A DNA stretch of 64,000 nt, taken from positions 124,001 to 188,000 of the forward strand of contig DASSPH010000067.1 of the NCBI GenBank assembly GCA_035699745.1, given 5' to 3'. The notes under the pieces are model-generated. The model was not told the origin of the DNA, made no database searches, and saw nothing but the letters and a program-made list of their open reading frames with translations. The position numbers and the translations under genes are program-made. This stretch comes from Vicinamibacterales bacterium. Its GTDB lineage: Bacteria > Acidobacteriota > Vicinamibacteria > Vicinamibacterales > 2-12-FULL-66-21. Numbering within the stretch: the stretch's first letter is position 1; every line of letters starts with the position of its first letter. This document shows positions 2,362 to 47,690 of this stretch, piece by piece.

Positions 2362-4377
2362 ATGGCGACGCCCGCCGCTTCCCACACGGCCGTGTGCCTG
2401 TCGCTGACGCGGGCGATCGGCAGGAGCCGCACGGTCGACGAGATCTACGACGCGACGCTCGATGCGCTCGCCGCGGGACTCGGCATCCGGCGCGCGTCCA
2501 TTCTGCTGTTCGACGCCGACGGCGTGATGCGCTTCAAGGCGTACCGCGGAATCTCGGAGCGCTATCGCCGTGCGGTCGAGGGGCACACGCCCTGGCGGCC
2601 GGACACCCGCGATGCGGAGCCGATCGTCGTCCCCGACGTGACCAAGGACGCATCGCTGCGGTCCTACCTGCCGGTCTTCGCGGCGGAGCAGATCGCCGGT
2701 CTGGTGTTCATTCCACTCGTCAGCCTCGACGGTGTGATCGGCAAGTTCATGCTGTATCTCGATCGGCCCGGCGCGCCGGGCGTGGACGAGATGCAGCTGG
2801 CCGGCTTGATCGCCGCCCAGGTGGCGTTTGCCGTGGAGCGGACGCGCACGGAGGCGCAGGCGAAACGCAGCGAGGCGCGTTTGCGCTTCGCCCTGGACGC
2901 GGCGGAGATGGGTACGTGGGACTGGGATCTGTCGACCAACGCGGTCGTCTGGTCCGACAATCTCGAGCGGATCCACGGCCTGCCGCCGGGGACCTTCGAC
3001 GGCACCTTCGCGAGCTACGAGAAGGAGATCCACCCGGACGACCGCGGCCGCGTGCTCGCCTCGATTCAGCACGCGCTGAACGACGGCGCGCCGCACGAAG
3101 TCGAGTACCGGCTGGTCGCGCCGGACGGCACGGTGCGGTGGTGCGAGGGCAAAGGACGCGTCGAGTACCAGGGCGATCGGCCGGCGAGCATGAGCGGCGT
3201 CTGCATGATGGTGACGCGCCGCAAGGAAGCGGAGCTCGCGCGACTGGCCGCGGCGGAAGACGCCAGCCGCCATAAGGACGAATTCCTCGCCACGCTCTCG
3301 CACGAGCTGCGCACGCCGCTCAATGCCATCCTCGGATGGGTGCAGATGATCGCCGCCGGGCAGCTGTCGCCCGAGCGGACGCGGCAGGCGATCGACGTCA
3401 TCGCGCGCAACGCCCGGCTGCAGCAGCAGCTGATCGAGGACATCCTCGACGTGTCGCGCATCATCACCGGCAAGCTGCAGATCGAGCGGATCCCGGTCGC
3501 CGTGCCGGGGCTGCTCGACACCGTGGTCGCCGGCGCCTCGCCCGACGCGGAGGCGAAGCAGATCGCGTTCGTGCAGCGCGTCGAGCCGGAGCTGCCGCCG
3601 ATCGAAGGCGATCCCAAGCGGCTGCATCAGATCCTCGGCAACGTGCTCTCGAATGCGATCAAGTTCTCCGCCAGGGGGGGCACGATCGAGCTGACCTGCG
3701 GGCAGCGCGACGGATCGCTCGAGATCTCGATCCGCGATCAGGGCGCCGGCATCGCGCCCGAGTTCCTGCCGTACGTCTTCGATCGCTTCCGGCAGGCCGA
3801 CAGCCGATCGACACGACGGCACGGCGGGCTCGGACTCGGACTGGCGATCGCGCGCCATCTGGTCGAGGAGCATGGCGGCGATATCCGCGCCGACAGCGAG
3901 GGGCCCGGCCGCGGCACCACCATCACCATCCGCCTCCCCGTGGGGCTCGCCGACGAGGCGCTTGCCGGCGCGCGGCCGGTGGCCAAGCGCTCGGTCGCCA
4001 ACGTCAGCCTCGGCGATCTCAAGGTGCTGGTGGTCGACGATCAGCTGGACTCGCGTGAAATGCTCGGCGCCCTGCTCGAATCGCGCGGCGCACGGGTGAT
4101 CCAGTGCGACAGCGCCGCGGCGGCGCTCAACCAGCTGCCGTCGCAGGCGATCGACCTGGTGATCGCCGACATCGCGATGCCGGGCGTGGACGGCTACGAA
4201 CTGCTGCAGCGGGTGCGGAAGCAGGGGCATACCATGCCCGCCATCGCCGTCACCGCCTTCGCCCGGCCGGACGATCGCGACCGGGCCCTGGCGGCCGGCT
4301 TCACCGCCTATTGCGCCAAGCCGATCGATGCCGCCCAGCTGATCGCGACGGTCCGCGGCCTGGTCGCCGCCACCTGA
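2362..4377 (+). CDS. Hybrid sensor histidine kinase (GAF-PAS-HisKA-HATPase-REC)
   Basis: A 671-residue two-component sensor. An N-terminal GAF domain (about 1-160) is followed by a PAS/PAC domain (about 175-295), a HisKA helix with the acceptor His314 in SHELRTPLNA, an HATPase_c domain (N-box LSNAIKFS, G-box GLGLGLA) and a receiver domain with the acceptor Asp603 in IADIAMPGVDG and the acidic pair VVDDQ. No transmembrane helix or signal peptide is seen, so it should be cytoplasmic. The ATG was chosen because a TAGAAT hexamer sits 6 bases upstream. It lies 18 bases after another hybrid kinase; the receivers at both C-termini suggest a phosphorelay, but no His-phosphotransfer protein or separate response regulator is nearby. 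Confidence 0.92.
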   Translation: MATPAASHTAVCLSLTRAIGRSRTVDEIYDATLDALAAGLGIRRASILLFDADGVMRFKAYRGISERYRRAVEGHTPWRPDTRDAEPIVVPDVTKDASLRSYLPVFAAEQIAGLVFIPLVSLDGVIGKFMLYLDRPGAPGVDEMQLAGLIAAQVAFAVERTRTEAQAKRSEARLRFALDAAEMGTWDWDLSTNAVVWSDNLERIHGLPPGTFDGTFASYEKEIHPDDRGRVLASIQHALNDGAPHEVEYRLVAPDGTVRWCEGKGRVEYQGDRPASMSGVCMMVTRRKEAELARLAAAEDASRHKDEFLATLSHELRTPLNAILGWVQMIAAGQLSPERTRQAIDVIARNARLQQQLIEDILDVSRIITGKLQIERIPVAVPGLLDTVVAGASPDAEAKQIAFVQRVEPELPPIEGDPKRLHQILGNVLSNAIKFSARGGTIELTCGQRDGSLEISIRDQGAGIAPEFLPYVFDRFRQADSRSTRRHGGLGLGLAIARHLVEEHGGDIRADSEGPGRGTTITIRLPVGLADEALAGARPVAKRSVANVSLGDLKVLVVDDQLDSREMLGALLESRGARVIQCDSAAAALNQLPSQAIDLVIADIAMPGVDGYELLQRVRKQGHTMPAIAVTAFARPDDRDRALAAGFTAYCAKPIDAAQLIATVRGLVAAT

Positions 4378-4439
4378 CGTAAAAATCCGCAAAACCGGCG
4401 TTCGCCGGCAAACTTCGCCCGGGCTCCATCCGTCCAAGG

Positions 4440-4453
4440 TCTTGTTACCAAGA
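4440..4453. promoter_or_regulatory. Short inverted repeat before a PadR gene
   Basis: TCTTG and CAAGA form 5-base arms around a 4-base centre, 11 bases before the ATG at 4465. It is a candidate autoregulatory operator by analogy with PadR family practice. The arms are short enough for chance. Confidence 0.25.
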
Positions 4454-4464
4454 AAGTCTGGGTA

Positions 4465-4797
4465 ATGAAGACGCCGAACTCGCTGCTGCACGGGGCGCTC
4501 GACGCGCTGATTCTGAAGACGCTCACCCGCGGCCCGAGCCACGGCTACGCGATCGCGCGCCACATCGAAGAGACCACCGGCGATGCCGTCCTGGTCGAAG
4601 AAGGCTCCCTTTACCCGGCGTTGTACCGGCTGGATCGGCGCGGCTGGGTCGAGGCCGAATGGGGCGTCTCGGAGCTCGGACGGCGCGCGAAGTTGTACCG
4701 GCTCACCGGCGCCGGCCGCCGGCAGCTCGCCGAGGAGACGGCGATGTGGCGGCGGTTCTCGGAAGGCGTGTCGCGGATGCTGCTCCCGCGAGGCTGA
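4465..4797 (+). CDS. PadR-family transcriptional regulator
   Basis: A 110-residue winged-helix repressor of the short PadR type. The N-terminal helix-turn-helix contains LDALILKTL and GPSHGYAIARHIEE, followed by the wing signature EEGSLYPALYRLDRRGWVEAEW and a C-terminal dimerisation helix. PadR proteins generally repress their own operon and are released by a small-molecule ligand; the ligand here is unknown. The stop codon at 4795-4797 is followed after one base by the GTG of an orphan permease, so the two genes are almost certainly co-transcribed. The 87 bases upstream hold a CCGGCG-tt-CGCCGG hairpin and a small inverted repeat. Confidence 0.9.
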   Translation: MKTPNSLLHGALDALILKTLTRGPSHGYAIARHIEETTGDAVLVEEGSLYPALYRLDRRGWVEAEWGVSELGRRAKLYRLTGAGRRQLAEETAMWRRFSEGVSRMLLPRG

Positions 4798-39440: not shown

Positions 39441-39452
39441 GGTTGCCTTTGT

Positions 39453-39470
39453 CTCCATAATGGAGATAAT
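39453..39470. promoter_or_regulatory. Palindrome and -10 element of a PadR gene
   Basis: CTCCAT-A-ATGGAG (39453-39465) is a perfect 6-base-arm inverted repeat that touches GATAAT (39465-39470), a -10-like hexamer 6 bases before the ATG at 39477. Binding there could also affect the divergent methyltransferase gene. Confidence 0.5.
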
Positions 39471-39476
39471 TCACGG

Positions 39477-39815
39477 ATGCCCGCACCGGTCGACGCGTTC
39501 CTGCCGCTGACGCATCTCCTCTATGCCGTGCTGCTCTCGCTCGCGGAAGAGGCGACCCACCCGTACGAGCTGGTCAAGCGCATTCGCGAGCGGTCGGACG
39601 GCCGCATCGATCCGGGCACCGGATCGTTCTACTCAGTTTTATCGCAAGCGGAGCGCCAGGGACTCATCCGCGAGCGCGCCGCGCCGGCGGATTCGCGCCG
39701 GCGCGTCTACGAGCTGGCGCCCCTCGGCCGGCGCGTGCTCGCGGCCGAAGCCGAGCGCCTCGCCGGCCAGTTGAAAGCGACCCGGGCGGCACTGGTCGCG
39801 GATCGGCGGCCGTGA
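39477..39815 (+). CDS. PadR-family transcriptional regulator
   Basis: A 112-residue PadR protein: helix-turn-helix with LLYAVLLSLAEEATHPYELV, KRIRERS, then GTGSFYSVLSQAERQGLIRE and wing RRRVYELAPLGRRVL. The start at 39477 is supported by GATAAT 6 bases upstream. Its TGA overlaps the GTG of the next gene (GTGA), so the pair is translationally coupled. The next gene is an internally deleted ADOP, making this a cassette with a shrunken permease. Confidence 0.9.
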   Translation: MPAPVDAFLPLTHLLYAVLLSLAEEATHPYELVKRIRERSDGRIDPGTGSFYSVLSQAERQGLIRERAAPADSRRRVYELAPLGRRVLAAEAERLAGQLKATRAALVADRRP

Positions 39816-40198
39816 CGGTCTTCGAACAGCTCTATCGCGCCGCGCTGGCGCTCATGCCGCGCGGGTTCCGCGAGCGCCACGGCGCCGATGCGCTCGAGAT
39901 GGCCGTGAGCCGCGTCCGCGAAGAAGCCGGCGCCCGTCGTGTCCTGCGAGCGGCCCGCGAGCTGCTGGATCTGCTGCGGCACGTGCCGCGGATCCGGCGC
40001 GACGCCGCGACGCTGCCGGTCGGGCGCGGCGAGAGGGGCGGTATGCGGGACGGGCTCGCATCCGACCTCCGCGCGGCGGCGGATCCCGCGGCGATTGCGG
40101 TCGTATCGATCGCGTTCGCCGCATGCGGCCTGCTCGCGGTCGGCTGGCCGGCGCGCACGGCGGCGTCCACGGATCCGGCCGCGGCGCTCAGGAACTAG
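39812..40198 (+). CDS. Mini-ADOP: orphan permease with large in-frame internal deletion
   Basis: A 128-residue protein made of the two ends of an ADOP. Residues 1-65 are a permease prefix (LMPRGFRERHGADALEMAV, RELLDLLRHVP). MRDGLASDLR then matches the usual restart before TM1, and the next residues jump to the extreme C-terminus: ADPAAIAVVSIAFAACGLL, then GWPARTAASTDPAAALRN, the last TM helix and tail of the second FtsX domain. About 650-750 residues expected between them are absent, yet the frame is intact. It starts with GTG overlapping the PadR stop. Either a decaying gene that kept its frame by chance or a selected single-TM derivative is possible. Confidence 0.7.
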   Translation: MTVFEQLYRAALALMPRGFRERHGADALEMAVSRVREEAGARRVLRAARELLDLLRHVPRIRRDAATLPVGRGERGGMRDGLASDLRAAADPAAIAVVSIAFAACGLLAVGWPARTAASTDPAAALRN

Positions 40199-44623: not shown

Positions 44624-44944
44624 ATGGCCAAAGGGGACTTCCTCGGCGAATTCGAGATCTACGTGATGCTGGCGCTGGCCCACCTCGGGCCGGACGCCTA
44701 CGGCGTGACGATCCGGCAGGAGATCACGCGCCGGACGGGGCGGGAGGTCGCCATCGGCGCCGTCTACGCCACGCTGTCGCGGCTCGAGGCGAAGCGGCTG
44801 GTGCGGCATACCCTTTCGGACCCGCTGCCGGTGCAGGGCGGGCGTACGCGCAAGCATTTCACCCTGACGCCGTCCGGCGCCCGCGCCCTCGCGCACGCCA
44901 CGTCGATGCTCGCCCGCATGATGCAGGGCTGGCGCCATGCCTGA
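44624..44944 (+). CDS. PadR-family transcriptional regulator
   Basis: A 106-residue PadR protein of the subgroup starting with GDFLGEFEIYVMLALAHLGP. The rest is standard: DAYGVTIRQEITRRTGREV, GAVYATLSRLEAKRLV, the wing RKHFTLTPSGARAL and a C-terminal helix. TAGAAC 7 bases upstream suggests a leaderless mRNA. Its 3' end overlaps the ADOP start by 8 bases, so the two are translationally coupled. Confidence 0.92.
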   Translation: MAKGDFLGEFEIYVMLALAHLGPDAYGVTIRQEITRRTGREVAIGAVYATLSRLEAKRLVRHTLSDPLPVQGGRTRKHFTLTPSGARALAHATSMLARMMQGWRHA

Positions 44945-47690
44945 CCGGGTGCCGCGCCTCGCGCGCTGGATCCTGCGGCTGGCGGCCGGCGCCGAGCACC
45001 GTGACGCGCTCCTGGAGGATCTCGCCGAGGAAGCCGCCGACCTGGCGCGGGCGTCGGGACCCGCCGCGGCGCGCCGCTGGATCCGCCGCCAGGCGCTCGC
45101 CTCGCTGCGGCCGCTGCTGCTTCGACGCGCCGAGACCGCCGGCGCCCTCGTGAGGAACGCATCGATGAACGGATGGCGCGGGTTCGGGTCGGACCTCTCG
45201 GCGGCGTCGCGCCGGCTGCGCGACACGCCAGGCTTCACGCTGGTCTGCGTGCTGACGCTCGCCCTCGGGATCGGCGGCAACACCGCGGTCTTCACGCTGA
45301 TCGACCGCGTGCTGCTCAAGCCGCTGCCGGTGCCGCGGCCGGCGGAACTGTATCGCGTCGGCGACACCGACGCCTGCTGCGTCAACTCCGGGCTGCAGGG
45401 CTCGTTCTCGTTGTTCTCCTACGATCTCTACACTCATCTGCGCGACGCGGCGCCGCAGTTCACCGGGCTGGCCGCGTTCCAGGCCAACACCCGCACGGTG
45501 ACGATCGGGCATGCGGATGGCGCCACCCCTCCCGAAACGCTGAACGGCGCCTTCGTCTCGGGCAACTACTTTCAGATGTTCGAGCTGGTCCCCGCGGCCG
45601 GCCGCCTCATTCATGGCGCAGACGACGAGCGCGGCGCGCCGGTCGTCGCCGTCCTCAGCCACAACGCCTGGACGCAGCGCTTCCAGTCGCGCGCCGACGC
45701 GGTCGGCCGCCGGATCTCGCTCAACGGCGTACCGGCGACGATCGTCGGCGTTGCGCCGCGCGGCTTCTACGGCGAGTCGCTGCGGCCGGATCCGCCGCAG
45801 ATCTGGATGGCGATCGCGAGCGAGCCGCTGCTGCAGCCGGCGGCAAAGCTGCGCGACGGCAGGGGGCAGCACTGGCTGTACGCGATCGGCCGCTTGAAGC
45901 CGGACACGGCGATCCCGGCGCTCGAGTCGCAGTTGACCGCGACGCTGCGCCAGTGGCTCGGCACCATCGACCTGTCCCGGGAACGCGGCGAGATCTCGCG
46001 GCAGACCATCACGGTGATTCCCGCCGCGGCCGGCGTCGACAACCTGCGCAACGCCGTCGCGCCGACGCTTCGGGCGCTGCAATGGCTTGCCGGCGCGGTG
46101 CTCCTCATCGCCTGCGCCAATCTGGCGAGCCTGCTGCTCGCCAGAGGCACGGCACGGCGGACCGAGACGGCGGTCCGCGTCGCTCTCGGCGCGTCGCGGT
46201 TCAGACTGATCGGCCAGTTCCTGCTCGAGAGCATCCTGCTCGCGTGCGCCGGCGGCGCGGCCGGCCTCGCCGTGTCGTACGTCGGCGCGCGCGTCATCAT
46301 CAATCTCGCGTTCCGCGGCGCGACCGACGTGCCCGTCGATCCGACGCCGTCGACGCTCGTCGTCCTCTTCGCCTTCGGCGCCTCGCTGGTGACCGGCGCG
46401 CTGTTCGGCGCGGCGCCGGCGATCGTCGGGTCGCGGACCAGCCCGATCGACGCGCTGCGCGGCGCATCGCGCATTGCGAGCGACCGCGGCGGCCGCCTGC
46501 GCGGCTCGCTGATCGCGCTGCAGGTCGCGCTCTCGCTCGTGCTCATCACCTGCGCGGGGCTGCTGGGGCGCAGCCTGCAGCAGCTCGAGCTGCAGGATTT
46601 CGGCGTCGCCATCCCCAGCCGCTACGTCGTCACCCTGGCGCCGTCGCTGAGCATGGTGACGCCCGAGGAGCTGCCGTCGATGTACGCGCGCATGCAGGAG
46701 CAGCTCGCGCGGATCCCCGGCGTCGTCAACGCCGCGTTCTCGCTGTACGCGCCGATGTCCGGAGACAACTGGTCGACGCGGATCGTGGTCGAGGGGCGCA
46801 GCACGCCCGAAGCCGCGTCGTGGAATCGCGTCAGCCCGCGCTACTTCGAGACGGTCGGCACGCCCCTGCTGCGAGGCCGGGCCTTGACCGAGCAGGACCG
46901 TCCCGGATCGCCGCTGGTCGCGGTGGTCACGCAAGCCTTTGCCGCCCGGTTCTTCGGCACAGCCGATCCGATCGGCCGCCGGATCGGGCAGATCACGCCG
47001 GAGATCGAGATCGTCGGCGTGGTCGCGGACGCGAAGTATCAGGACGGCCGCCGCGCGCCGCGCGAGATGTTCTTTCTGCCGTACCTCCAGGAAACCTCCA
47101 CCAGCCGCACGCGAGCCGCGGCTGGCGGCCTGCGCATCGATCGCTCGCACTATCCGCAGGCGATCGTGCTGCAGACCGCCGGTCCGCGGTCGGGCCTCGA
47201 GGCCGACGTGCGCCGTGTGCTCGCGGACGTCGATCGCCGCATCACGGTCCGCTCGCTGGTCTCGATGGAGGAGCAGGTCGCGCGGGCGTTCAGTCTGGAT
47301 CGGCTCACCGCGCGTCTGACCCTGGCGTTCGGTGCGGTCGCGCTGCTGCTGGCGTGCCTCGGCCTCTACGGCGTCACCGCGTACTCGGTGGCGCGGCGCA
47401 CCCGTGAGATCGGCGTCCGCATGGCCGTGGGCGCGTCGCGGGGCCGCGTGGTCGGGACGATCCTCCGTTCGGCGATTGGTCAGGTCGCGGCCGGCGTCGC
47501 CATCGGCATGCCGCTGACGTTGATGGCCGGCCGCATTCTCGCATCGCGTCTGTTCGGCGTCACCGGCCACGACCCGCTGGTGATTGCCGCAGGTCTGGCG
47601 CTGCTCGGCGTGTCGGCGGCGATCGCCGCGCTGCTGCCGGCGGCGCGCGCCGCAACAATGGATCCGGTCCGGGCGCTGCGGATTGAATAA
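44937..47690 (+). CDS. ADOP-type permease with the second type of N-terminal prefix
   Basis: A 917-residue orphan MacB/FtsX permease. The N-terminal prefix differs from the other cassettes: PDRVPRLARWILRLAAGAEH followed by LLEDLAEEAADLARASGPAA, the style of the second permease prefix domain, matching its distinct PadR subgroup. TM1 lies in LALGIGGNTAVFTLIDRVLL; FtsX helices follow with CANLASLLLARGTARRTETAV, a second periplasmic domain and a C-terminal FtsX ending ARAATMDPVRALRIE. Its substrate and ATPase partner are unknown. The ATG overlaps the end of the PadR gene. Confidence 0.93.
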   Translation: MPDRVPRLARWILRLAAGAEHRDALLEDLAEEAADLARASGPAAARRWIRRQALASLRPLLLRRAETAGALVRNASMNGWRGFGSDLSAASRRLRDTPGFTLVCVLTLALGIGGNTAVFTLIDRVLLKPLPVPRPAELYRVGDTDACCVNSGLQGSFSLFSYDLYTHLRDAAPQFTGLAAFQANTRTVTIGHADGATPPETLNGAFVSGNYFQMFELVPAAGRLIHGADDERGAPVVAVLSHNAWTQRFQSRADAVGRRISLNGVPATIVGVAPRGFYGESLRPDPPQIWMAIASEPLLQPAAKLRDGRGQHWLYAIGRLKPDTAIPALESQLTATLRQWLGTIDLSRERGEISRQTITVIPAAAGVDNLRNAVAPTLRALQWLAGAVLLIACANLASLLLARGTARRTETAVRVALGASRFRLIGQFLLESILLACAGGAAGLAVSYVGARVIINLAFRGATDVPVDPTPSTLVVLFAFGASLVTGALFGAAPAIVGSRTSPIDALRGASRIASDRGGRLRGSLIALQVALSLVLITCAGLLGRSLQQLELQDFGVAIPSRYVVTLAPSLSMVTPEELPSMYARMQEQLARIPGVVNAAFSLYAPMSGDNWSTRIVVEGRSTPEAASWNRVSPRYFETVGTPLLRGRALTEQDRPGSPLVAVVTQAFAARFFGTADPIGRRIGQITPEIEIVGVVADAKYQDGRRAPREMFFLPYLQETSTSRTRAAAGGLRIDRSHYPQAIVLQTAGPRSGLEADVRRVLADVDRRITVRSLVSMEEQVARAFSLDRLTARLTLAFGAVALLLACLGLYGVTAYSVARRTREIGVRMAVGASRGRVVGTILRSAIGQVAAGVAIGMPLTLMAGRILASRLFGVTGHDPLVIAAGLALLGVSAAIAALLPAARAATMDPVRALRIE

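Follow-up and report, generated by a model that had tools for sequence, protein, structure and literature searches.

The short open reading frame at 39812-40198 of the window (the whole stretch of 64,000 nucleotides that was analysed) is likely to be what an in-frame deletion left of a PadR-linked ADOP permease gene, that is, an ordinary product of decay lying beside a PadR regulator that still works. In the mechanism proposed here, the parent ADOP would have lost the whole region between a point shortly before TM1 and one shortly before its last helix, with the reading frame retained by luck, and PadR, the candidate operator and the translational overlap would have survived the deletion. The likeliest present state of the frame, whose product is called the mini-ADOP below, would then be that of a recent, near-neutral remnant next to a working regulator. 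The features concerned are the following.

39449..39469, no strand assigned: 21-bp imperfect palindrome TTGTCTCCATAATGGAGATAA, lying between the start of padR and that of the divergent methyltransferase gene
39477..39815, forward strand: padR, intact PadR-family regulator of 112 aa (Pfam PF03551, E 9.9e-14; TIGR03433, E 3e-12)
39812..40198, forward strand: mini-ADOP ORF, 128 aa, with a GTG start overlapping the padR stop (GTGA); probably derived from a PadR-linked ADOP permease by an in-frame internal deletion
39812..40009, forward strand: cytoplasmic prefix domain, predicted three-helix bundle (alignment, profile match, AlphaFold2)
40043..40072, forward strand: ADOP restart segment MRDGLASDLR, residues 78-87 (comparison with full-length ADOPs)
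40073..40084, forward strand: deletion junction (between AAA and D), with TM1 to TM7 and both MacB-like periplasmic domains absent
40088..40144, forward strand: remaining transmembrane helix, residues 93-111, equivalent to ADOP TM8 (hydropathy peak 2.39; TIGR03434 763-802)
40145..40198, forward strand: ADOP C-terminal tail PARTAASTDPAAALRN and stop (TIGR03434 match, tail comparisons)

Descent from an ADOP gene of which both ends were kept is indicated by similarity in the prefix as well as in the tail. Residues 1-66 match a 26-row profile of the prefix at the N-terminus of PadR-linked ADOPs (E 7e-13; the profile contained the mini-ADOP's own sequence), MRDGLASDLR corresponds to the segment that precedes TM1 in full-length ADOPs (e.g. 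MHTLAHDLRLAVRSL), and residues 89-128 align with positions 763-802 of TIGR03434, the ADOP model of 803 positions (E 1.8e-4). Compared with that family, the protein has the last helix, the tail, the overlap with padR and an N-terminal prefix as found in PadR-linked full-length ADOPs, but lacks both MacB_PCD domains, TM1-TM7 and about 94% of the model, and it fails the whole-model cut-off of 622 bits, scoring 19.7 bits over 40 residues. A Pfam search of the mini-ADOP gave no match, so that no MacB_PCD/FtsX half was detected, and the hydropathy profile has one peak, whereas that of the intact ADOP at 44937-47690 has eight. The earlier note had described an in-frame miniature ADOP that keeps the two ends of the permease, and the 128-codon frame with its prefix, restart, last helix and tail agrees with that description; the deletion of 'roughly 700' codons also stands, although its size is slightly larger, at about 750 codons relative to a full-length ADOP.

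Two parents instead of one could in principle be envisaged, the front of one ADOP having been fused by recombination to the tail of another. The nearest relative of the tail (58% identity to the last 40 residues of L070, a full-length ADOP of another genome) is indeed a protein without a prefix, and the nearest prefixes come from other ADOPs; yet all of these similarities are low, the parent gene is without a close relative and two parents are not required. A single deletion within one gene is simpler, and we regard a fusion as most improbable.

The retention of an intact frame, of PadR and of the coupling between the two genes, all of which had been claimed from the sequence beforehand, is confirmed. 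The ORF is open and carries the codon signature in both of its halves (in-frame log-likelihood per codon of +0.31 and +0.16, turning negative just downstream); the open frame itself is weak evidence, because the DNA is GC-rich and opposite-strand frames of 90-112 codons overlap it. The regulator gene at 39477-39815 is intact, with its PF03551 domain, and its stop codon shares the sequence GTGA with the start of the mini-ADOP. It is a PadR of the same general kind as the acidobacterial PadR regulators of TIGR03433, but scores under the cut-off of that family (46 of 101.8 bits). Upstream of it, the palindrome at 39449-39469 has a score that was reached by 0.019 of shuffled upstream sequences, and we infer that it is a candidate PadR operator. 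A core resembling it, TCCATAATGGA, lies upstream of the PadR gene at another locus (L172).

Since padR, the candidate operator and the overlap are all intact, the cell probably still makes the 128-residue protein, which consists of the three-helix prefix and one helix. This protein can no longer act as a permease, having lost both periplasmic domains and seven of the eight helices. The topology of the remaining helix should, moreover, be inverted in the membrane relative to that of TM8, given that an odd number of helices was removed and that the Arg-rich N-terminus is expected to stay cytoplasmic; with the helix inverted, the tail would be unable to make its native contacts. For the prefix, AlphaFold2 (with a 5-row alignment) predicts three helices at residues 3-12, 17-36 and 41-67 with a mean pLDDT of 84.7. 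A single-sequence AlphaFold2 model of the whole mini-ADOP was set aside (pLDDT 49.8).

The earlier note had also suggested that the short form may be functional, and had proposed to search relatives for it. When the protein was compared with 60 relatives and then with the 162 genomes of the order, its only full-length match was to itself, and a scan against GTDB contigs gave no match either; the same GTDB scan with PadR returned only distant PadRs (39-44% identity). No conserved short form was thus found among the genomes of the order or the GTDB contigs, and conservation lends the suggested function no support: no other genome has the short form, the equivalents at two other loci (L164 and L218, described below) are out of frame, and the prefix and tail diverge more than nearly all others of their families. 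Downstream of most relatives of the PadR gene lies an ADOP that overlaps the gene or nearly adjoins it, and these ADOPs are full-length, with roughly 860-960 residues, as far as unbroken frames and sufficiently long sequence stretches are concerned. On this comparison of gene neighbourhoods, the full-length PadR-ADOP arrangement is very probably ancestral.

Erosion of ADOP genes is a common process in the order. The genome to which the window belongs (G000) has at least 67 full-length ADOPs in 6.3 Mb and 99 ADOP-tail matches, mostly within frames at least about 790 codons long, together with tail-only leftovers (L216, L217 and L220). At L218, on contig C66 of this genome, the start MDTLVQDIRSAVCTVV is followed, in a different reading frame, by the last helix and tail, and in another family of the order (L164:1516-1941) a PadR gene and a prefix are followed by model positions 766-820 in another frame; the breakpoints of these two loci are nearly equal to those of the mini-ADOP. 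For L164, a full-length orthologue was sought in five genomes of its own genus and not found, so that this case comes without a before-and-after comparison. Other loci retain different portions of the gene, namely the prefix followed by model positions 208-820 (L162), positions 12-38 followed by 617-820 (L233), positions 9-122 followed by 685-820 (L150), and PadR together with a tail of positions 748-817 (L228), and the relatives as a whole include internal deletions, prefix-only leftovers and tail-only leftovers. These counts are not a census, as the searches scored part of the candidates and several of the assemblies are fragmented. Deletions that keep both ends are accordingly not rare, and that of the window is the only one seen cleanly in frame, which is compatible with a one-in-three chance of frame retention. 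As a remnant, the mini-ADOP would illustrate how very large ADOP families erode, with the permease body lost and PadR and the prefix often kept. Five other loci that looked like further miniature forms (L146, L149, L154, L155 and L156) were discarded as contig ends. The very large ADOP expansion in this 6.3-Mb genome is a separate observation.

A short ADOP could also arise artificially, when two ADOP ends are wrongly joined in a draft or metagenome assembly, and a genome with dozens of ADOPs in 110 contigs is a setting that is prone to such collapse. The genome was searched for a second copy of the junction or a DNA repeat across it and none was found, the best match outside being about 33 bases at 91%; no other place in this genome has sequence in common with the stretch across the junction, which argues against repeat-driven misassembly. 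The junction, furthermore, lies deep within a 208-kb contig, and comparable deletions are present in unrelated assemblies, so that an assembly artefact appears very unlikely. As for the route of the deletion, a loss between direct repeats was considered, but the only direct repeats around the junction are short and imperfect (13-20 bp) and show no sign of having been used.

Measures of constraint on the two ends fit a mild relaxation but are not decisive on their own. In leave-one-out scoring the prefix ranks third lowest of 26 (36 bits against a median of about 63), and the tail ranks second lowest of 66, scored on the 37 shared residues with those lost at the junction left out; values of this kind would also suit a divergent parent and, against the remnant interpretation, could mean a divergent functional paralogue. 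Two further points count against that interpretation. Decay is not far advanced, since the frame, the codon signature and the hallmark residues of the tail (DP, PAR and DP..ALR) and of the prefix (L12, P16 and R20) are intact, and remnants are a minority in this genome as against at least 67 full-length ADOPs. A fairly recent deletion is the favoured reading, and the suggestion in the earlier note that the form may be very recent fits it.

The prefix itself, with the consensus LYR.LLRLYP..FR..YG.EM, is a PadR-linked domain that is present in 64 of 161 genomes of the order. Searches of 26 prefixes against Pfam and NCBIfam, including the HAAS/DUF1700 models, gave no match; a fold search of the PDB gave no match with E <= 0.001, and the prefix profile found only chance matches among PDB sequences. 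By these comparisons the domain appears to be undescribed, and it is absent from Pfam and NCBIfam; both annotation work and a PadR-binding test could take it as a concrete target. A reasonable working analogy is provided by HAAS, a three-helix domain that is always encoded beside a standalone PadR and whose listed partners are FtsX/MacB_PCD fusions as well as 6TM, 4TM and 2TM proteins (Ravi et al. 2024, PMC11237479). As in the HAAS-PadR dyad (PMC11237479), a standalone PadR (PF03551, E 9.9e-14; GTGA overlap) adjoins a membrane protein, and the prefix of the mini-ADOP, for which three helices are predicted, lies where HAAS would lie; unlike it, the prefix in the window has no sequence match to the HAAS/DUF1700 models and the mini-ADOP has no sensor domain.

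This analogy opens the alternative that the mini-ADOP is functional as a PadR-prefix pair on a single-helix anchor, in which PadR would be held or released by the three-helix prefix, as has been proposed for HAAS-PadR pairs, with no permease involved. A PadR-linked single-helix sensor of this kind is conceivable, given that the three-helix prefix survives and that there are PadR-prefix proteins with one to six helices. More specifically, the prefix is intact and predicted to form a three-helix bundle, the order contains other permease-less PadR-linked prefix proteins (of 6-TM, 2-TM and 1-TM type, and L080 in the same genome), PadR and prefix recur without a detectable permease at L064, L163, L166 and L168 (unrelated short proteins may be among them), and dyads of HAAS and PadR, FtsX/MacB fusions included, are described in the literature (PMC11237479). 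The short form is, however, not conserved, the 1-TM form (L170) is likewise a singleton, the prefix and tail are unusually divergent, the equivalent product at L164 is frame-broken, and an inverted last helix would have cost the tail its native contacts; we consider a functional mini-ADOP, the chief alternative to a remnant, rather unlikely. A broader version, in which PadR and the prefix form a self-sufficient signalling pair, ADOP loci repeatedly shed the permease and the mini-ADOP is such a stripped-down pair with a recycled, inverted last helix, is likewise given little credence. If the remaining pair does still signal, it would offer a natural test, in minimal form, of PadR control from the membrane.

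Apart from the mini-ADOP, which we take for a decay remnant, the prefix domain precedes not only ADOPs but also 6-, 2- and 1-TM bodies (L162-L181). The 2-TM proteins linked to PadR are those at L165, L171, L174 and L176, and the 1-TM protein is that at L170. In the genome of the window, a PadR gene on contig C48 (L080, about 4310-4700) is followed by a non-ADOP protein of 125 residues that combines a prefix-2-like domain with one C-terminal helix, and on contig C32 (L222) the protein encoded after PadR is short and prefix-like and has about three helices. The undescribed prefix domain may be the more useful outcome of this analysis, and together with its 6-TM relatives it is the part most worth following. 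L169, L173, L178 and L179 form a recurring family of PadR, prefix and a 6-TM-like body, in which no permease or MacB domain was found and which share the motif Y[FL]YHPYLEG.
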